From a virus, in IMG/VR virus record IMGVR_UViG_3300047552_000368, positions 1 to 21,157 of that record: a DNA stretch of 21,157 nucleotides; one strand, given 5' to 3'. Each line of letters starts with the position of its first letter. The first letter of the stretch is position 1. Both the position numbers and the translations under genes were made by a program. Shown one piece after another: positions 2,702 to 21,157 of this stretch. The notes below the pieces were generated by a model. It searched no databases and was not told where the DNA came from. It saw only the letters and a list, made by a program, of their open reading frames with translations.

Positions 2702-3640
2702 ATGCGTGTAATCGTCACCGGATGCGCCGGCTTTATAGGCTTTCACCTGACCCGCCGCCTTCTAAACGAGGGCTACCAGGTTATCGGCCTCGATAACTTC
2801 TCTACCGGCAGGGTCGAACACGTGAAGCTACTTAAAGAGCTAAGTAGCCAGTTTCGCTTCGAGCCCGTTGATATAGAAAAAGCCGATCAGGTAAAGGATC
2901 TCTTCTGGGCCACGGCAAAGCTCGGCACCATCGACTGCGTGTTTCACCAGGCGGCCCTCGGCTCAGTGCCGCGATCGATCACGGAGCCCGAAAAGACGAC
3001 CGCTTCTAACATTCTAGGCTTTCAGAACGTGATTCATGCGGCGCAGCTAACGAAGGCCGAACGCTTCGTCTACGCTTCATCAAGCTCCGTCTACGGCGCT
3101 AAGACGAACTCGACCTCTCCGTACGCCCTATCGAAAAGCTATAACGAAATGCTCGCCAAGCTCTACTCGGACCTCTACGGCATGGAAACCGTAGGACTGA
3201 GATACTTTAACGTCTTCGGCCCGAAGCAGCTCTCTACGGGCAGCTACGCCGCCGTGATACCGCGCTTTATCCGCCTGATCTCAGAGAATAAGGAAATCGA
3301 AATACACGGCGACGGTAACCAGGCCCGCGACTTTACCTACGTCGATAACGTCGTCGAGGCGAATCTAAAGGCTATGCTCGCTGCGGTAAACGGGCACTAC
3401 GTAATGGACATCGGCTGCGCTCAGACGGTGACGGTAAACGATCTCGCCACCTGCATCGCGAAGCTGATGCAAAAAGAGCTGCAAATCAGGTACTCGAAAA
3501 AGGATAGGCCAGGAAACGCCCTTTACTCGTGTGCGAATCTCGACGAGGCTCGGCGCGTTATAGGATACGAGCCCGAAGTAGGATTTCACGAAGGCTTAAA
3601 GCGCACTATTCTCGATCACGCTCGGACGTTCGCAAATTAA
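2702..3640 (+). CDS. UDP-GlcNAc/UDP-GlcNAcA 4-epimerase-like (WbpP/TviC family)
   Basis: An extended short-chain dehydrogenase/reductase. It has the Rossmann NAD motif G-C-A-G-F-I-G (7-13), the family signature HQAALGSVPRSI (82-93), the serine run ASSSSVYG (125-132), and the catalytic pair Y141 and K145 in YALSK. RYFNVFGP and IHGDGNQARDFTYVDNVV follow. The HQAALGSVPRSI block is typical of WbpP/TviC enzymes, which invert C4 of UDP-GlcNAc or its uronic acid. The neighbouring dehydrogenase suggests it makes UDP-GalNAcA. At 312 residues it is shorter than usual (about 340), and the loop between the SxYG block and PYxxxK is about 10 residues shorter than in WbpP. There is no strong Shine-Dalgarno. 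Its 3' end overlaps the leftward gene by 35 bases. Confidence 0.88.
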   Translation: MRVIVTGCAGFIGFHLTRRLLNEGYQVIGLDNFSTGRVEHVKLLKELSSQFRFEPVDIEKADQVKDLFWATAKLGTIDCVFHQAALGSVPRSITEPEKTTASNILGFQNVIHAAQLTKAERFVYASSSSVYGAKTNSTSPYALSKSYNEMLAKLYSDLYGMETVGLRYFNVFGPKQLSTGSYAAVIPRFIRLISENKEIEIHGDGNQARDFTYVDNVVEANLKAMLAAVNGHYVMDIGCAQTVTVNDLATCIAKLMQKELQIRYSKKDRPGNALYSCANLDEARRVIGYEPEVGFHEGLKRTILDHARTFAN

Positions 3641-3886: not shown

Positions 3887-5209
3887 TTAAAGCCTCGCTA
3901 GGTAAAAGCCGCGACTTTCGCAGGCCTGCCGATCAAGGAAGGACTTTACGTCAAACACGGTGCCGAATCTAGAAACGGCTAGCTCTAAGTACTGATACGC
4001 ATTGCGGTGGTAGTCCTCGTGAGCCACGCAGAAAATAGCACTGTCGCTCTTCGCTAGCTTCCGAGGCGCGAGCATTTCAATGCCGTACTCCTTAACCGCA
4101 TGCGCCTTATCGGCCATCGGATCGGAGACCTGAACCCAGATGCCGCGACGCCTAAGAGCCCGCACGACGTCGATCACCTTCGTGTTTCTTATATCCGGGC
4201 AATTTTCCTTAAACGTAAACCCGAAGATCGTCACCATCTGCGGATGCCGCCCAGTCTTCGCGAAGTGAAAATCTAAGGCACGCTCGGCAACGAACTCGCC
4301 CATGGAATCATTTATCGCACGGCCCGCCTTTATCACCTTCGGCTCATAGCCCAGGCTCTCCGCCTTGTGCGCCAAGTAGTACGGGTCGACACCGATACAG
4401 TGCCCGCCGACTAGACCAGGGCGAAAGCGAAGGAAATTCCATTTCGTGCCGGCAGCGTCTAGCACGTCCTGCGTATCGATACCGAGACGCGCGCAGATCT
4501 TCGCCATTTCGTTCATAAGCGCTACGTTTATATCGCGCTGCGTATTCTCTAGGATCTTCGCCGCCTCGGCGACCTTTATCGATGGCGCCATGTGTACGCC
4601 GGGCTGCACGACTGCCGAATACACGAAGGCGATCTTTTCTAAAGCCTCTCGAGATCGCGCAGAAACCACCTTTTTTATATTCTCTAGCCGATGCTCCTTA
4701 TCGCCCGGATTGATGCGCTCCGGACTATAGCCGACGTGAAAGTTTAAGCCCTCTTTTAGGTTCGACATCGCCTCTAGGATCGGCACGCAATCGTTTTCGG
4801 TACAGCCCGGAGCTACGGTCGACTCAAAAACCACGATCGATCCGCGCTTCATGAACTTACCAACCATCTGCGACGCTAACTTTAGGGCTCTCGTATCGGG
4901 AAAGTTCGCGCCGTCTACCGGCGTCGGTACCGCGACGATATAGAAATCAAGACCGCGAAGATCAGTGACGTTAGAAGAAAAGACGCCGTTAAAGTCTGAT
5001 AAGGCTCCAGGGCTGACCTCCTTCGTGCGATCTACTCCGGCTCGAAGCTCCTGAACTCTGGCCTCGTCAATATCGAAACCGACGACCTTAAACTTGCGCG
5101 CCATCGCTACCGCCACCGGCAGACCGACATAGCCAAGACCGACAATGCCGATCGTAGGATTATAGAGAGAGCGCACGCCGATAGGTAAATGAACGACATT
5201 CGTTGACAT
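3887..5209 (-). CDS. UDP-N-acetylglucosamine 6-dehydrogenase-like (WbpO/TviB family)
   Basis: A full-length (440 aa) member of the UDP-glucose/GDP-mannose dehydrogenase family. It oxidises C6 of a UDP-sugar to a carboxylate with two NAD+. Seen in order: the NAD-binding G-L-G-Y-V-G-L-P (24-31), VPTPVD (94-99), ESTVAPG (129-135), GYSPERINPGDK (160-171), EAAKILENTQRDIN (215-228), TKWNFLRFRPGLVGGHC (255-271) with catalytic C271, and FTFKENCPDIRNT. YSPERINPGD and TKWNF point to the WbpO/TviB branch, acting on UDP-GlcNAc rather than UDP-glucose. I chose the ATG at 5209. No Shine-Dalgarno is visible, and the N-terminus is about 18 residues longer than the Rossmann strand needs. Transcription runs leftward from the 5210-5293 gap. 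Confidence 0.9.
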   Translation of the reverse strand: MSTNVVHLPIGVRSLYNPTIGIVGLGYVGLPVAVAMARKFKVVGFDIDEARVQELRAGVDRTKEVSPGALSDFNGVFSSNVTDLRGLDFYIVAVPTPVDGANFPDTRALKLASQMVGKFMKRGSIVVFESTVAPGCTENDCVPILEAMSNLKEGLNFHVGYSPERINPGDKEHRLENIKKVVSARSREALEKIAFVYSAVVQPGVHMAPSIKVAEAAKILENTQRDINVALMNEMAKICARLGIDTQDVLDAAGTKWNFLRFRPGLVGGHCIGVDPYYLAHKAESLGYEPKVIKAGRAINDSMGEFVAERALDFHFAKTGRHPQMVTIFGFTFKENCPDIRNTKVIDVVRALRRRGIWVQVSDPMADKAHAVKEYGIEMLAPRKLAKSDSAIFCVAHEDYHRNAYQYLELAVSRFGTVFDVKSFLDRQACESRGFYLARL

Positions 5210-13573: not shown

Positions 13574-14086
13574 ATGGCAGCGGTGCTAGACCTGAATAAC
13601 ATTCTCGAGCAGATACAAACGATCTTCGAGTCGGCTAATACGACGACGGCCTCGCCGGTCGATATATCGAACGGGCTATCGACGCAGTCAGGACGCGTGC
13701 GCCAAGTCTATAAGACGCATCCGACGAGAATCAGGCCCGAGGTGAACGTAATGCCATTTGTTACGACCTACATTTCGTCTAAGTCGACGGACGACCAGAC
13801 CTTCGCTAGAGATAAGCTCTCGATAAAGAGAAAGGCCGACGTGACGATCGACGTCGTCGGCGCGGTCTGGAATACGGCTTTTCAGTCAGCCGATACCGAT
13901 CCGGCAGATGCCGACATTCATGTGCTTATGGAGAATCTAGAGCTATGCCTCAGGGGTAACGACACGCTAAACGGCGCCGTTCATAGCCACGTGCCTACGG
14001 GCGTCGAGTACTACGACGAAAACCTAGACGAGGGCGTGCATCTTCGCTTCGGCATTCTGACCCTAAGAGCCACCGCGTACTACTGA
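13574..14086 (+). CDS. putative tail terminator / minor tail protein
   Basis: 170 aa, with a GGAGG ribosome site at 13559-13563. The sequence starts with a helix (LDLNNILEQIQTIFESAN). Mixed beta strands follow, such as NVMPFVTTYISS, KRKADVTIDVVGAVW, and a last strand LRFGILTLRATAYY. The size, the N-terminal helix and a final strand ending in an aromatic pair fit tail-terminator proteins (lambda gpU type), which cap the tube. In gene order this slot (after gpG-like, before tube) is where that protein belongs. Sequence similarity alone would not settle it. Confidence 0.6.
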   Translation: MAAVLDLNNILEQIQTIFESANTTTASPVDISNGLSTQSGRVRQVYKTHPTRIRPEVNVMPFVTTYISSKSTDDQTFARDKLSIKRKADVTIDVVGAVWNTAFQSADTDPADADIHVLMENLELCLRGNDTLNGAVHSHVPTGVEYYDENLDEGVHLRFGILTLRATAYY

Positions 14087-14117: not shown

Positions 14118-15110
14118 ATGCCGAATGAGAGTCAGGTCTTGGCGCAGTCGAAAGCCGCCTACGGGCAATGGAAAGAACAGTGGCGAGAGCAGGCGAAGAC
14201 GCACTCTGAGTATAAAATGAAAAGCCTGCTCGACTTCGAGAATATCGGCGTGGGCCGGACCGTGCTATGCGTCGCAAACGGCTATTCGTTCGAAGAAAAT
14301 ATCGAGACGATCAAAGCGCATAGGGAAAATATCGACATCCTTTGTTGCGATAAGACGCTAGGGCACCTGCTCGATAACGGCATCGTGCCGACCTACTGCC
14401 TCGTCTGCGACGCTAACGTCTCGTTTGAGAAGTACCTGGAGCCCTATAAAGACCAGGTTAAGAACGTCGTTCTTTTTATAAACGTCTGCGCGAACCCGAA
14501 ATGGACCGAGGGCATCGCATGGAAGGATCGCTACTTCTTCGTGAATAAAGACATCCTACAGTCGGAGAAGGAATTCTCGGCCCTCTCGGGCTGCGATAAC
14601 CTGATACCGGCTGCGACGAACGTGTCGAACGCAATGGTCGTGCTTTTGACTCAGTCCGATAACGGCGGGCGCGTGAACTTCTTCGGCTACGATAAGATCT
14701 GCCTGATCGGCTACGACTACTCATGGAAGGCCGACGGTAAGTACTACGCTTTCGATAAGGACGGAGACGGCAAGACGCACTACATGCGGCACATTCACGC
14801 GCTAAACGAGGCCGGCGATTACGTCTACACGTCCGGTAATCTGGCCTTTTCGGCCTCCTGGCTCGAGAAGTACGTCACGACATTTAAGCTGCCCGTCGTT
14901 CAGTGCTCAAAGAGCGGTATCATGGGCCAGTCCTTTGGCGGCGATCTGGCTAAAAATTTAAGTTATCGCTACAAGCCGCAAGATGCGACACTTGTGCGTG
15001 AGCTGATCGAGCGCCTTAATAAGGCCCGACACGAGGCGCGAAAACTTGATACAGTGTTAAAGGAAATCAGTCGGGACCACTATCGAAGCTACGTAGCTTC
15101 GCGCTATTAA
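14118..15110 (+). CDS. DUF115 / Maf-like (MptE-like) protein inside the tail operon
   Basis: 330 aa. Residues about 46-110 match the DUF115/MptE-like fold: VLCVANGYSFEENIETIK, I-L-C-C-D-K-T-L-G-H-L-L, N-G-I-V-P-T-Y-C-L-V-C-D-A, then a YLEPY helix. Later, FFGYDKICLIGYDYSW resembles the V-G-x-D strand of the same family. A charged helical tail closes it (VRELIERLNKARHEARKL). DUF115 covers MptE pterin diphosphokinases and Maf flagellin glycosyltransferases, which attach acidic sugars. A phage tail operon makes a transferase role more likely than pterin synthesis. GAGGAG precedes the ATG. The next gene, the tail tube, has a near-perfect ribosome site 12 bases after this stop. Enzyme activity is not proven from sequence. 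Confidence 0.72.
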   Translation: MPNESQVLAQSKAAYGQWKEQWREQAKTHSEYKMKSLLDFENIGVGRTVLCVANGYSFEENIETIKAHRENIDILCCDKTLGHLLDNGIVPTYCLVCDANVSFEKYLEPYKDQVKNVVLFINVCANPKWTEGIAWKDRYFFVNKDILQSEKEFSALSGCDNLIPAATNVSNAMVVLLTQSDNGGRVNFFGYDKICLIGYDYSWKADGKYYAFDKDGDGKTHYMRHIHALNEAGDYVYTSGNLAFSASWLEKYVTTFKLPVVQCSKSGIMGQSFGGDLAKNLSYRYKPQDATLVRELIERLNKARHEARKLDTVLKEISRDHYRSYVASRY

Positions 15111-15122
15111 GGAGGAAATCTC

Positions 15123-16172
15123 ATGGCAGTAGGCCAAGGTGCAATCGTTAGCTTTCCGTCTTATCTTGCCGTAGCTCGTGAGACTACCTACGGCACCTAC
15201 ATGACGGCGACCTGCGGGCTCGAATTTATATCGTGCTCTCTGAAAAACCTAAAAACGAATCGCGTGATCGAGGAGATTACCAGCTCGCGCGTAATGAACG
15301 ACACTATAGGGCTAGGGCGAACGATCGAGGGCGATCTTGAGCACTACTTCGACCCTCGCTCTACGGCGGCCTGCTATATGCTACAGAACGGCCTCGGCGG
15401 CGCTGCGGTAACCTCTGCGACTGCGACCGGTGAAACTGCGGGCGGTACGGCCTTTACGCACGTCTTCACCTTAGGCGACTTCTCTGCGACGCACGGGTCG
15501 CTCTCGTTTAACGTGCGCAAGGGCGATGCGACCAGCGCTAAGATCTTCGAGTACAAGGGCCTGCGAGTAAACGAACTGGCGCTCACATCAGAGATCGACG
15601 AGCCGCTAAAAATGACTTACTCGCTCATAGGTAAAGACGCATCGCTTACGACGAACGACGTATCGAGCAGCATCGGCACTCTGAGCCAGACGCCGCTATC
15701 GTTCGTAAATGGTCGACTGAGCCTCGAGGGCACGTTCGCGTCTCTGACCTCAACGTCGTTCTGGCATGTGCAGAATATCGAGTTCACACTGGCGAATAAC
15801 CTAAAGGCAGATGAGTCGTCGCGCCGAATCGGATCGGATACGCTCGACGTACTGCCTCCAGGCGTAGCGAGCATGGAGCTTAAATTCACGATTCGCTTTG
15901 ATACAAACACGGCCTATAACTACATGCTAAACGGCACGCAGATCGCAGGTGAGTTCGAGTTCCTAGGCGACACGCTTGCGACCTCTATCATTCGCCAGGG
16001 CTTAAAGATGCAGTTTCCGAAGCTCGTCGTCACCGAGGCGGCAGACCCGGAGATTTCCGGCCCAGACGAGATCCTGACTCAAGAGGTAACGGCAGTCGTT
16101 CTTCGCGATGTATCTAGCGCCGGTGGCTACGCAGTCCGGGCGCTCGTAACAAATAACGCTTCGAGTATTTAA
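15123..16172 (+). CDS. tail tube protein (major tail protein)
   Basis: 349 aa, preceded by AAGGAGGA at an ideal distance, fitting a major virion protein. It has the tail-tube look: an N-terminal YLAVARETTYGT start, a beta-rich body rich in Ser/Thr, LSFNVRKGD, KIFEYKGLRVNELALTSEIDEPLKMTYSLIG, and the late LKFTIRFDTNTAYNYMLNG. Repeating strands with 'LxFxxxN/D' spacing are typical of gpV-like tubes. The absence of a sheath gene beside it suggests a non-contractile tail. GTG of the next gene directly follows its stop. If the virion is glycosylated, this abundant Ser/Thr-rich protein is a natural candidate target. Confidence 0.8.
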   Translation: MAVGQGAIVSFPSYLAVARETTYGTYMTATCGLEFISCSLKNLKTNRVIEEITSSRVMNDTIGLGRTIEGDLEHYFDPRSTAACYMLQNGLGGAAVTSATATGETAGGTAFTHVFTLGDFSATHGSLSFNVRKGDATSAKIFEYKGLRVNELALTSEIDEPLKMTYSLIGKDASLTTNDVSSSIGTLSQTPLSFVNGRLSLEGTFASLTSTSFWHVQNIEFTLANNLKADESSRRIGSDTLDVLPPGVASMELKFTIRFDTNTAYNYMLNGTQIAGEFEFLGDTLATSIIRQGLKMQFPKLVVTEAADPEISGPDEILTQEVTAVVLRDVSSAGGYAVRALVTNNASSI

Positions 16173-16583
16173 GTGAATTTTCTAAACTGGTTTCGCGCAA
16201 GGCCGCTCGATGCGGTCTTGTCTCCTAAGAAGAGAATCAAGGTGCAGGGCGTGGTCTTTATTATTAAAAAGATCGACGTCCTGGACCACCTCGAAGGCGC
16301 TAAGGTGCTTCAGAAGTCCTACGACACCTATAAGGTCGAGCGCGAATCGGGCAAAGATATCGAGTCGGTGGTTCAGAAAAAGGTCAGAGAGCACTATGCC
16401 GATGTGATCCTGGCCGGAGTCGTAAGCCCAAAGATTAAGCGCAAGCAGGACGACCCGTCCGGCGAGTACTGGGTCCAGGATCTTTTCCAGAACTGGGACT
16501 TGGTCGAAAATTTATATTCCGAAATCCTTGAGTTCACCTATGGTAAAAAAAAACTAACGAAGGCGCTGGGCCTAAAAAGCTGA
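16173..16583 (+). CDS. tail assembly chaperone (gpG-like)
   Basis: 136 aa, starting with GTG directly after the tube stop. Soluble and charged: LNWFRARPLDAVLSPKKRIKVQGVVFIIKKIDVLDHLEGAKVLQ, then helical segments, ending YGKKKLTKALGLKS. In siphophages a short protein between tube and tape measure, with a -1 frameshift into a longer product, is the gpG/gpGT chaperone pair that loads the tape measure. This one has both the place and the slippery run (nine A's, 16545-16553). No ribosome site is obvious, so translation probably couples to the tube gene. Confidence 0.85.
   Translation: MNFLNWFRARPLDAVLSPKKRIKVQGVVFIIKKIDVLDHLEGAKVLQKSYDTYKVERESGKDIESVVQKKVREHYADVILAGVVSPKIKRKQDDPSGEYWVQDLFQNWDLVENLYSEILEFTYGKKKLTKALGLKS
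16547..16553 (+). other. -1 programmed frameshift slippery site, A AAA AAA
   Basis: Nine A's (16545-16553) precede CTAACG, giving the zero-frame codons AAA AAA AAA CTA. The heptamer A-AAA-AAA at 16547-16553 is an ideal -1 site. Slipping there leads into the frame that stays open to 16765. No other start serves that frame. Confidence 0.85.
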
Positions 16584-16778: not shown

Positions 16779-18554
16779 ATGGCAAATAAGGAAGCGTCAC
16801 TACTACTCAGGATAAAAGAGACGGGCTCCGAGGCCCTTGATCGCGCAGGCGACGCGCTTAAAAACGTAGGGCAGATCGCCCTAGGCGTAGGTACTGCGAT
16901 CGTCTCTTTTGGTGCGATGGCGCTGAAGGCCTTTAGAGAATCCGAGCTAGCGACGAATCAGCTAAATCAAGCAATGGTAAACTCGGGCGTTTTCTCGACC
17001 GAGCTACGAACGCGATACGAGACTCTGGCCTCGTCGATTCAGAAGATGACTACCTTCGAGGACGATGCGGTAATCTCCTCGATTGCCCTGATACAACAGC
17101 ACGCTAAGGGCATTCCTGTAACCGACGCTCTTGTGAAGGCCACGACTGACCTTGCCGCAGCTCAGGGCATTGATCTTAACCAGGCGGCGGAGCTAGTAGG
17201 TAAGACGATCGGTAGCAATACGAACGCGCTTGCAAGGCAGGGCATAGAGATCGACGCCACGGCGACGGCCTCGGAGAAAATGGCCCAGGTAACCGAAGCG
17301 CTTAACTCTAAGTTCGGCGGTCAGGCCGAGGCGATGGCCCTAGGTCTAGGCTCGATCGAGCAGTTAAAAAACGCCTTCGGTGACTTCATGGAAGACGTCG
17401 GAGCGGAGATCGCACCGACCGTAGGTGCTCTCGTTAAGATCTTCACCGATTTATTTAGCTCGATGTCGACCGGCATGAGCATTGCGCAAGCGTTCGGCGT
17501 GATTTTTCAGTCGATCGGCGAGGGCGCTCTCTATCTAAAGTTCGGTCTGAACGAAGTCGTGATGGCGATCACCGGCGGGCTCGTAAGCGCTACCGAGGCG
17601 ACGAAGGCAGCGGTGCGAGGTAACTTTTCGCAGGCTAAGGAGATCGTCGCGACTGGGCTTGCCGAGATAAAAGCGGCGCACATAGAGAATCAGACGGCAT
17701 TAAATTCAGAATTGCAAATGCTTCGAGACGCCCGAGAGGCCGGCGATCAGGCGGCACTACAGCGAGACGAGCAGAACTTTTTAGCATCTACGCAGCGGAA
17801 AAAAGAGATAGAGGCGCAGAACCACGTCGAGAAGCTAGAGGCGCAGATCACTAGAGAGCAGGAGCTTTTCGATCTACAAGCCGCTAGCGATGAGCAGAAG
17901 ATCTCGAAGCTGATTCAAATGAAGGATCGCGAGATCAAGGCCGAGACCGATGCGGGTCAGAAAAGGCAGCTCTTGTTAGAGAAGCAGGCCTTACAGCAGC
18001 TAAATCACGAATCCATGATGAATGCGAAGCGCATGGATGCGGAGAAAAAGATAAACGACGAGCGCGTGGCTGGGCAGCGCGACACGCTTAGTAAAATTTC
18101 AACGCTTTCAAACTCGAATAACCAAACACTAGCAGCTCTCGGCAAGGCTGCCGCTATTACGCAGATTGCTCTTGATACGCCAGTAGCTATTGCTAAGGCC
18201 CTGACCTACGGCGGGCCACCACCTCTTAACTTCGCCGTGGCTGGAATAGTCGGTGCTGCGATGGCGGCCCAGGCGGCGCGCATTGCGGGCGTACAGCTCG
18301 CAGACGGCGGTATCGTAAGAGCCACGCCCGGCGGTGTGCCCGCGATCATCGGCGAGGGCGGTCGCGACGAGGCCGTTATTCCTTTAGAGGACGGGCGCGT
18401 GCCCGGCATGGGCGGCAATGTAACGATAATCGTAAACGGCGGCCTACTGGGCGATGCGCAAAGCGCTCAGGAGTTTGCCGTAGCCGTCGATCGAGAGCTG
18501 CTTAAACTAAGGCAATCGAACGCATCGGTCGCCTTTGACTTCGGAGTAGTTTAG
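16779..18554 (+). CDS. tail tape measure protein
   Basis: 591 aa. It has an N-terminal helix and a first membrane-like segment (VGQIALGVGTAIVSFGAMA, about 29-47), then long helices and Q/A-rich repeats typical of tape measures. A coiled-coil stretch runs about 280-420 (EIKAAHIENQTALN, KKEIEAQNHVEKLEAQITREQEL). Near the end come PPPLNFAVAGIVGAAMAAQAA, LADGGIVRATPGG and EGGRDEAVIPL, the familiar C-terminal signature. The ribosome site AGGTGA (16767-16772) lies close to ATG. At 591 residues the tail would be short to medium, near 90 nm if about 1.5 angstrom per residue. It is flanked by the chaperone and Dit genes as expected. Confidence 0.93.
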   Translation: MANKEASLLLRIKETGSEALDRAGDALKNVGQIALGVGTAIVSFGAMALKAFRESELATNQLNQAMVNSGVFSTELRTRYETLASSIQKMTTFEDDAVISSIALIQQHAKGIPVTDALVKATTDLAAAQGIDLNQAAELVGKTIGSNTNALARQGIEIDATATASEKMAQVTEALNSKFGGQAEAMALGLGSIEQLKNAFGDFMEDVGAEIAPTVGALVKIFTDLFSSMSTGMSIAQAFGVIFQSIGEGALYLKFGLNEVVMAITGGLVSATEATKAAVRGNFSQAKEIVATGLAEIKAAHIENQTALNSELQMLRDAREAGDQAALQRDEQNFLASTQRKKEIEAQNHVEKLEAQITREQELFDLQAASDEQKISKLIQMKDREIKAETDAGQKRQLLLEKQALQQLNHESMMNAKRMDAEKKINDERVAGQRDTLSKISTLSNSNNQTLAALGKAAAITQIALDTPVAIAKALTYGGPPPLNFAVAGIVGAAMAAQAARIAGVQLADGGIVRATPGGVPAIIGEGGRDEAVIPLEDGRVPGMGGNVTIIVNGGLLGDAQSAQEFAVAVDRELLKLRQSNASVAFDFGVV

Positions 18555-18556
18555 CC

Positions 18557-19351
18557 ATGGCAGTCGATTCAGTTTTTGAGTTCTTAAAGTCGAACTTTCT
18601 CAATACGACGACGCAAATAGCGGTGACGAATAACACGGGTACTGCCGAGAACCTCCTGAACCCGGATCGCCGGATACAGTACTACACCGATGGGCTCGAT
18701 AACGATGCCACGACGGCCTCGATCACTATCAGCTTTGCAGCGACGCAGACCGTAAGCCGCCTTGCCCTAAACGAGATCAATTTTAAGAAATTTAATATCT
18801 ACTACAATGGCCTTACGGCTAACACGCTCGCGCTGACCTCGACCGCTGCCACGACGACAAGCCAATGGACAAATAACTCAGAGACGTCGATGTATCTTCG
18901 CTTCGCCTCGGTTAACGTGACGTCGCTGACCTTCGACCTCTACTCTACGCAGGTCGCGAATGCAGAGAAGGCGATCGGCTCGCTGTATATTTCGGACCCG
19001 CACTTTACACCGCCAAGGCGCCCGTCGTCGTCGGACTACACGCATCGCATCGATCCCGAGCAGGTCGTTCATACGATGTCAGACGGTGGCGTAAGGCTTC
19101 ACACGGTAAAGGATAAGCAGCAGACCGAGCTTAAATTTAAGAATATCTCGCGCACGTTCAGAGATAATCTAAAGGATCTCTACGACCTGCACGACTCTTT
19201 TCTCTTCTGCCCGCTCGGGACCTCTACCGGATGGGACGCAGTGATCTATGAGGCCGTCTGGCCAGGCAATTTCGACTTCTATAAATTCTCAGACGATGCC
19301 GTAGCCTCTGGCTTTAGCGGCACGATACAGCTTCGCGAGGTGTCCTCGTAA
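18557..19351 (+). CDS. distal tail-like protein (Dit position), discoidin-like N-terminus
   Basis: 264 aa. The first 150 residues form a beta sandwich-looking region: NLLNPDRRIQYYTDG, ASITISFAATQTVSRLALNEINFKKFNIYYNG, TSMYLRFASVNVTSLTFDLY. This resembles an F5/8 (discoidin) carbohydrate-binding fold. The rest (YISDPHFTPPRRPSSSDY, RIDPEQVVHTMSDGGVRLHTVKDKQ, FSGTIQLREV) fits a tail-hub adaptor. It comes right after the tape measure, so it is probably the Dit-like ring that starts the tail tip. A GGAG (18543-18546) precedes ATG. The last base of the stop is the first base of the next ATG (TAATG). The discoidin idea is pattern-based. Confidence 0.65.
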   Translation: MAVDSVFEFLKSNFLNTTTQIAVTNNTGTAENLLNPDRRIQYYTDGLDNDATTASITISFAATQTVSRLALNEINFKKFNIYYNGLTANTLALTSTAATTTSQWTNNSETSMYLRFASVNVTSLTFDLYSTQVANAEKAIGSLYISDPHFTPPRRPSSSDYTHRIDPEQVVHTMSDGGVRLHTVKDKQQTELKFKNISRTFRDNLKDLYDLHDSFLFCPLGTSTGWDAVIYEAVWPGNFDFYKFSDDAVASGFSGTIQLREVSS

Positions 19352-20753: not shown

Positions 20754-21157
20754 GTGCCAAGTAGCAATACGATCACATCGACCGATATCACGACGTTCGT
20801 CGCGGGCACGACCATCAAGAGCGGCGAGGTAAACGGTAACTTCTCAGTTTTTAGGGGCCACCTGATACCGGTCGCCGTGAACACATCTAGTGCGGCCTCG
20901 ACGACGACCTACGATCTAGGCTCTACGTCTAGCGCTTGGCGAACGTCCTACGTCCAGACCAGGCAGTTTGCGACACAGTCGACGAGCACCTCGACGCCCG
21001 ACTCTGGGTTTCTATCCGTCTATGCGAAGTCAGATAACGAACTCTATAAAAAAACCTCGGGCGGAGTAGAGACAAAGCTCGCGATTCAAAAGGCACCGAC
21101 GATTCAAAAATTCACCTCTGGTTCTGGCACCTATACGACACCGTCAGGCGTTAAATG
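20754..21157 (+). CDS. tail fibre / receptor-binding protein (partial, runs off the window)
   Basis: A GTG at 20754, two bases after the hub stop, opens a frame that stays open to the edge (at least 134 residues). The sequence is fibre-like: SNTITSTDITTFVAGTTIKSGEVNGNF, an LGSTSSAWRTSYVQT repeat-like unit, DSGFLSVYAKSDNELYKKTSGG, and at the edge FTSGSGTYTTPSGVK. That last stretch normally leads into a glycine-rich receptor-binding tip (IRVxMVGGGG...). The protein is therefore probably the host-recognition fibre. The C-terminal part, with the receptor specificity, lies outside. Confidence 0.8.
   Translation, partial: MPSSNTITSTDITTFVAGTTIKSGEVNGNFSVFRGHLIPVAVNTSSAASTTTYDLGSTSSAWRTSYVQTRQFATQSTSTSTPDSGFLSVYAKSDNELYKKTSGGVETKLAIQKAPTIQKFTSGSGTYTTPSGVK

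Follow-up and report, generated by a model that had tools for sequence, protein, structure and literature searches.

A gene for a Maf-like putative glycosyltransferase of the DUF115 family occupies a fixed place in the tail module of a lineage of uncultured phages, between the genes for the tail terminator and the tail tube. We favour, with somewhat better than even confidence, the reading that the phage makes a CMP-ulosonic sugar and that the gene product attaches it to a virion protein, with the tube as the likeliest acceptor. The gene was analysed in a stretch of 21,157 bases (the window; IMG/VR virus record IMGVR_UViG_3300047552_000368, positions 1 to 21,157) that is probably a fragment. 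Its features, and those of selected related contigs, are listed in Table 1.

Table 1. Features of the window and of related viral contigs (L numbers).
Source	Position	Strand	Feature	Basis
Window	2702..3640	+	Nucleotide-sugar epimerase, TviC-like, optional accessory	Pfam E 3e-54; TviC model
Window	3887..5209	-	Nucleotide-sugar dehydrogenase, TviB-like, optional accessory	TviB model; NDP-sugDHase
Window	13574..14086	+	Tail terminator (gpU/p142-like), directly upstream of DUF115	AF2 fold match
Window	14118..15110	+	Maf-like (DUF115/PF01973) putative glycosyltransferase, 330 aa	Pfam E 2e-16, AF2 fold
Window	15108..15125	+	Junction: DUF115 stop TAA, GGAGG ribosome site, tube ATG	Direct reading
Window	15123..16172	+	Tail tube protein, favoured candidate acceptor	PF18906 Phage_tube_2 E 1.6e-26
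Window	16173..16583	+	Putative tail assembly chaperone	Position and conservation only
Window	16779..18554	+	Putative tape measure protein	Position, length, conservation
Window	20754..21157	+	Start of tail-fibre-like gene (family c16), cut by window end	Gene maps of 12 relatives
L023	6551..7975		Tail terminator with N-terminal extension	
L164	18109..18483		Small protein c17	
L164	18484..19323		DAHPS-like synthase c19	
L186	2432..3730		Methyltransferase c12, TPR repeats C-terminal	
L257	6978..17135		Sugar genes, fibre and DUF115	
L257	13958..15511		Ser/Thr-rich repeat fibre	
L257	16182..17135		DUF115	
L268	2451..7520		Sugar genes of a third phage type	

The preliminary description of this DNA had recognised a Maf/MptE-like gene here, and this assignment was confirmed: the protein scores 60.7 bits over residues 29–204 against PF01973 (MptE-like, formerly DUF115), well above the gathering cut-off of 34.6. 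The NCBIfam flagellin-modification model PseD/Maf (NF050051) aligns to residues 45–253 (E 2.8e-6), at 26.2 bits against a cut-off of 670 and over positions 226–430 of the 640 in the model; as this is far under the cut-off and covers a partial architecture, the protein is classed as Maf-like and not as Maf. An AlphaFold2 model, made from an input that included 14 relatives (pLDDT 88, pTM 0.86), returned the Maf glycosyltransferase 5mu5 as the first PDB match in Foldseek (E 2e-10), followed by archaeal HPPK/MptE (3e-5). The structural comparison with Maf and MptE that had been proposed at the outset was run with VIA-align, and 5mu5 was the top match among the PDB chains compared (Z 21.9, rmsd 2.8, 237 residues), ahead of HPPK/MptE (8sd5, Z 16.5), SteA (Z 11–12) and the GT29 and GT42 sialyltransferases (Z 8–10). 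The predicted structure has the fold of the Maf catalytic domain as well as that of MptE, and is nearest to Maf rather than MptE. Sequence profiles built from DUF115 also reached Maf first (E 1.6e-4 and 1.3e-4, with HPPK at 0.067 in the second). When the lineage is aligned with an outgroup of 35–40% identity, 32 columns are invariant, a pattern that fits a working active site and an active enzyme. The main lineage reads NGYS at the position of GPS in Maf, so its specificity may differ from that of Maf. A region of the type GxDY/F...YAF presumably resembles CstII, judging by eye.

The position of the gene within the tail module was equally well borne out. The upstream protein has no Pfam or PHROG match and lies beyond the reach of sequence searches alone; its AF2 model (pLDDT 75) matches the tail terminators gpU of lambda and p142 of T5 (Z 14–15), and this predicted fold, together with its place before the tube, identifies it as the tail terminator. 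The coupled ribosome sites described earlier are also present, with GAGGAG preceding the DUF115 ATG and GGAGG the tube ATG, and the gap between DUF115 and tube has a median of 12 nt in the relatives. The tube had further been called strongly expressed, a weaker claim that has only a good Shine-Dalgarno sequence behind it. A promoter scan returned fewer sites than were found in shuffled sequences. Of the downstream genes, the putative chaperone had no PHROG match and the putative tape measure protein no Pfam match.

Four scans of viral contigs, with the DUF115 protein (17 loci), a DUF115 alignment (71), a tube alignment (79) and outgroup DUF115s (10) as queries, converged on the same arrangement. 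The tube lies directly downstream of DUF115 in all 164 testable loci of the pooled scans, which fall partly on the same contigs and represent about 76 distinct DUF115 proteins, so the link to tail genes that had been suggested from one sequence extends to every case that could be examined. A terminator was recognised upstream of DUF115 in 150 of 153 loci; the three without a call (L029, L107, L235) all represent one contig, where another profile does detect it. Since the order terminator‒DUF115‒tube recurs in every testable relative, the arrangement is not due to chance. Seen from the tube, DUF115 is just upstream in 76 of 79 loci, and in the remaining three (L084, L124, L126) the contig starts about 50 bases before the tube. 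The tube-alignment scan of viral contigs found no tube of the lineage without DUF115, and even an outgroup with 30% identical tubes carries it. Tubes without DUF115 that could serve as a control come only from distant Acinetobacter phages such as TRS1 (29% identity), whose annotation shows no DUF115 gene in the interval from terminator to tube.

Some variation was seen in the terminators themselves. In about 14 relatives (among them L007, L009, L016, L023, L040, L042, L061 and L071) the protein has an N-terminal extension of about 300 residues, which in L023 contains short repeats and a domain of Laminin-G/concanavalin type (PF13385, E 1e-6); this would put a lectin-like fold on the neck, encoded beside the putative sugar transferase gene. 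In contig L141 there are two terminator copies instead, one of them extended at its C-terminus by fn3.

The source of the sugar was sought in the remaining gene content. The preliminary description had pointed to the TviB/TviC-like pair of the window as the origin of an acidic sugar donor, and had proposed a check of whether the pair accompanies the transferase across phages. Both genes score under the cut-offs of the specific NCBIfam models (181.7 bits for TviC; 426.7 bits against a cut-off of 592 for TviB), while the dehydrogenase passes the general NDP-sugDHase model. Among 13 genomes, the window included, the epimerase family is present in seven and the TviB-like dehydrogenase in three. 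Such a pair would yield a UDP-linked hexuronic acid, whereas Maf takes CMP-linked acids. The pair was therefore rejected as the general donor source, being patchy in the relatives and expected to give a UDP- rather than a CMP-linked product.

The more general proposal, that the phage makes an acidic donor, is sustained by a different set of genes. Whole-contig maps of 12 near-complete relatives reveal a cassette after the tail genes, following c16. All 12 carry a cytidylyltransferase‒GT2 fusion (c11, in which the N-terminal half is the cytidylyltransferase) and a methyltransferase with TPR repeats (c12), and 10 carry a radical SAM/SPASM protein (c18). A small conserved protein of about 124 aa (c17), without a Pfam or PHROG match, lies beside c11, likewise in 10 of the 12. 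The TPR repeats of c12 could bind a protein acceptor. A synthase completes the set, either DAHPS-like (c19, 8 of 12) or NeuB-like (c25, 4 of 12), with both present in one genome; in the outgroup genome, a NeuB-like ORF was found that belongs to neither cluster (PF03102, E 7.5e-34). In 31 loci the sequence runs on far enough beyond c11 for the cassette to be assessed; 30 of them have c19 or c25, and all have c12 and c18. A match above the cut-off to the cytidylyltransferase family of CMP-KDO/CMP-sialic type (PF02348) was obtained for 21 of the 24 large relatives. In these relatives, CMP-ulosonate donor genes of the kind that go with Maf are found in the same genomes as DUF115, and this gene content supports the view that phages of the lineage encode the means to make an acidic, CMP-type sugar donor.

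The two synthases stand in for each other and belong to different families, which share a chemistry, the condensation of PEP with an aldose to a 3-deoxy-2-keto acid; such acids are the substrates of enzymes of the CMP-KDO/CMP-sialic type. The best scores of c19 are to DAHP synthase models, though under their cut-offs, and the KPRTS loop with which DAHP synthase binds erythrose-4-phosphate is replaced in the alignment with 1vs1 by RAGTY, which is kept across the c19 set. This replacement makes a changed substrate likely, with an aldose that is probably not erythrose-4-phosphate, and the c19 proteins may form a so far unknown ulosonic acid. Because the window's contig ends too early, within c16, the gene that precedes the cassette, we infer the cassette of its own phage from the relatives; the closest near-complete one (G017, DUF115 66% identical) has the cassette as well as the Tvi-like pair. 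The likely donor genes are those of a cassette just past the window end, and not the Tvi-like pair.

A tblastn search of INPHARED (50,697 phage records), in which three different DUF115 proteins served as queries, gave no relative; none was found, with the patterns used, in bacterial and archaeal genomes, where no prophage was seen either. Members of the family are entered in databases as 'MptE-like' phage proteins, for which we found no described function or system. The literature searched, which included few subscription papers, contained no description of a Maf accompanied by an ulosonate cassette in a phage.

A scan with c11 revealed a second, unrelated group of near-identical contigs with a P22-type portal (L257, L259, L266, L269 and others), which may be of marine type. 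This group has a c12-like methyltransferase, c18 and a c19 protein that matches the main-lineage c19 profile at E 2e-77, and its cytidylyltransferase and GT2 are two adjacent genes rather than a fusion. The substrate loop of its c19 reads VYGTYP. Its DUF115 lies about 5 kb from the sugar genes and adjoins a Ser/Thr-rich repeat fibre gene. The protein matches PF01973 (1e-28), the main-lineage profile (3.5e-10), Maf 5mu5 (6.5e-5) and, weakly, a sialyltransferase PHROG (4.6e-4), and carries the classic motifs GSGPSL, which includes the GPS of Maf, and TSGSV. The cytidylyltransferase half of c11 has no tblastn relative in the 50,697 phage records, and the pairing of DUF115 with the cassette in two lineages is therefore unlikely to be background. 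Within one lineage the co-occurrence largely reflects shared ancestry, so that the independent support amounts to one other lineage. A third phage type, L268, is a counter-example of a kind, as it carries a radical SAM protein, a GT2‒CMP-sugar synthetase fusion whose domains stand in reversed order, NeuB and a pair of epimerases, with no DUF115 on its 19.5 kb contig.

As regards the acceptor, the preliminary description had drawn attention to the Ser/Thr richness of the tube; the value is indeed high (21.2%), but not uniquely so, as the distal-tail-like protein at 18557 reaches 22.3% and a gp36-like protein 21.0%, and it was rejected as evidence for the target. In a distance test on the 33 taxa with all genes, with a short profile for the terminator, the partial correlation with DUF115 was highest for the tube (0.32, bootstrap CI 0.10–0.48), followed by MCP (0.20) and the terminator (0.06), even though the terminator is as close to DUF115 as the tube is. 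The tube was the top co-varying gene in only 60% of bootstraps and, as linked genes share their history, the correlation is only a hint. The tube is thus favoured as acceptor by its position and a weak evolutionary-rate signal. A motif of the type N-x-[TV]-[SA]-[SN]-Y at the tube C-terminus (nt 16,128–16,172 of the window) is kept in most relatives and absent in TRS1; it is a possible glycosite, or else a structural or packing contact.

The same enzyme and donor may instead serve another acceptor, such as the c16 fibre, the 18557 protein or the capsid, with the adjacency of the tube reflecting late expression only. The equal Ser/Thr content, the location of the cassette after c16, the second rank of MCP in the distance test and the fibre beside the marine-group DUF115, where no tail tube was recognised nearby, would all agree with this, but the strict adjacency of the tube wherever the main lineage could be tested and its top partial correlation do not, and we consider such an acceptor unlikely, though it is the leading alternative. 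That the glycan is destined for the host surface, for receptor masking or superinfection exclusion, seems improbable: GT2 enzymes are often used by phages to change host surface glycans, and weak matches to GtrB-like PHROGs were obtained for the GT2 half of c11, but DUF115 is locked within a virion operon, Maf acts on cytoplasmic protein, and with no prophage in the host genome scan lysogenic conversion is not indicated. It is more doubtful still that DUF115 is a pterin pyrophosphokinase of the MptE type, or a relative of it that has lost catalysis and acts as a tail assembly factor. The family bears the name of MptE, HPPK/MptE is the second fold match, and a fixed place in a tail operon would suit an assembly factor; against this, Maf is clearly the better match by both fold and sequence, the pocket-like motifs are invariant, the co-occurring genes are sugar genes, and the invariant D98-A99 (context D98-A99-x-V) is not followed by DxDG, which we take to be the metal-binding motif of MptE. 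A role of the cassette and DUF115 in DNA modification, for which there are precedents among viral DNA-hypermodifying glycosyltransferases (Pyle et al. 2024, as cited in PMC12619734), is hardly credible given that Maf relatives act on protein, that the cassette sits with tail rather than replication genes and that no base-modifying gene was found constantly linked to it.

Returning to modification of a virion protein by the Maf-like enzyme, we infer its catalysis, donor, acceptor and order of steps as follows. An ulosonic acid would be formed by a PEP-aldose synthase, either c19 with its changed substrate loop or c25, and activated with CTP by the N-terminal half of c11. The DUF115 product, a putative soluble glycosyltransferase made along with the tail proteins, would accept the CMP-activated, sialic-acid-like 3-deoxy-ulosonic sugar and transfer it to Ser/Thr residues of a virion protein, in the likeliest case the tube; this step would precede tail assembly or accompany it. 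The glycan would probably be extended or edited by the GT2 half of c11, c12 and c18, although the GT2 domain could itself transfer the sugar. A bolder version is put forward tentatively, as possible and not probable: the phages would have a self-sufficient, novel 3-deoxy-ulosonic pathway with a neofunctionalised DAHPS-like synthase, the coating of the tube would be an obligatory maturation step, and tube and flagellin would have become targets of the same kind of enzyme independently.

Few cases of virion glycosylation have been described in tailed phages, and most of the enzymes responsible have yet to be assigned. In the lineage studied here, the gene for one such putative enzyme belongs to the fixed core throughout and is accompanied by its own candidate donor genes, so that target, donor and purpose (shielding, receptor contact or tail stability are candidates) become testable with a handful of genes. 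If the proposal is true, it would provide a function for part of the 'MptE-like' proteins that are listed with no function assigned in uncultured phages, and would lead to a synthase that forms a sugar from an unknown substrate.

Among known systems, the GT42 (CstII) and GT29 sialyltransferases share a common fold with the DUF115 protein; neither family is among the Pfam matches of the window protein, and none of the comparisons made placed it in them. MptE/6-hydroxymethylpterin pyrophosphokinase shares the Pfam family and overall fold at a lower score than Maf, and the phage gene co-occurs with sugar rather than folate genes. Mycobacteriophages carry glycans on capsid and tail tube (Freeman et al. 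2023, cited in PMC12619734), and as far as the account in the citing paper goes, neither a Maf-like enzyme nor ulosonic acid is known there. In Bacillus subtilis, spsE and spsF belong to the CMP-legionaminic acid pathway, in which a NeuB-like synthase and an SpsF-like cytidylyltransferase act together (PMC7439481); that system serves the spore crust and lacks a Maf, whereas the phage cytidylyltransferase is fused to GT2 and its synthase is often DAHPS-like. The closest counterpart is Maf (motility accessory factor), which transfers CMP-activated nonulosonic acids or KDO to Ser/Thr of flagellin, CbMaf using CMP-Neu5Ac and CMP-KDO (PMC11339370). The phage protein differs in its length (330 aa against 632–666), its NGYS motif in the main lineage and its viral location beside a tail tube rather than flagellin, and it resembles the enzymes of M. 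magneticum (5mu5) and CbMaf in its catalytic-domain fold, its NGI-P motif, its predicted solubility, the presence of CMP-ulosonate donor genes in the same genome and a place among genes for a helical tubular assembly.
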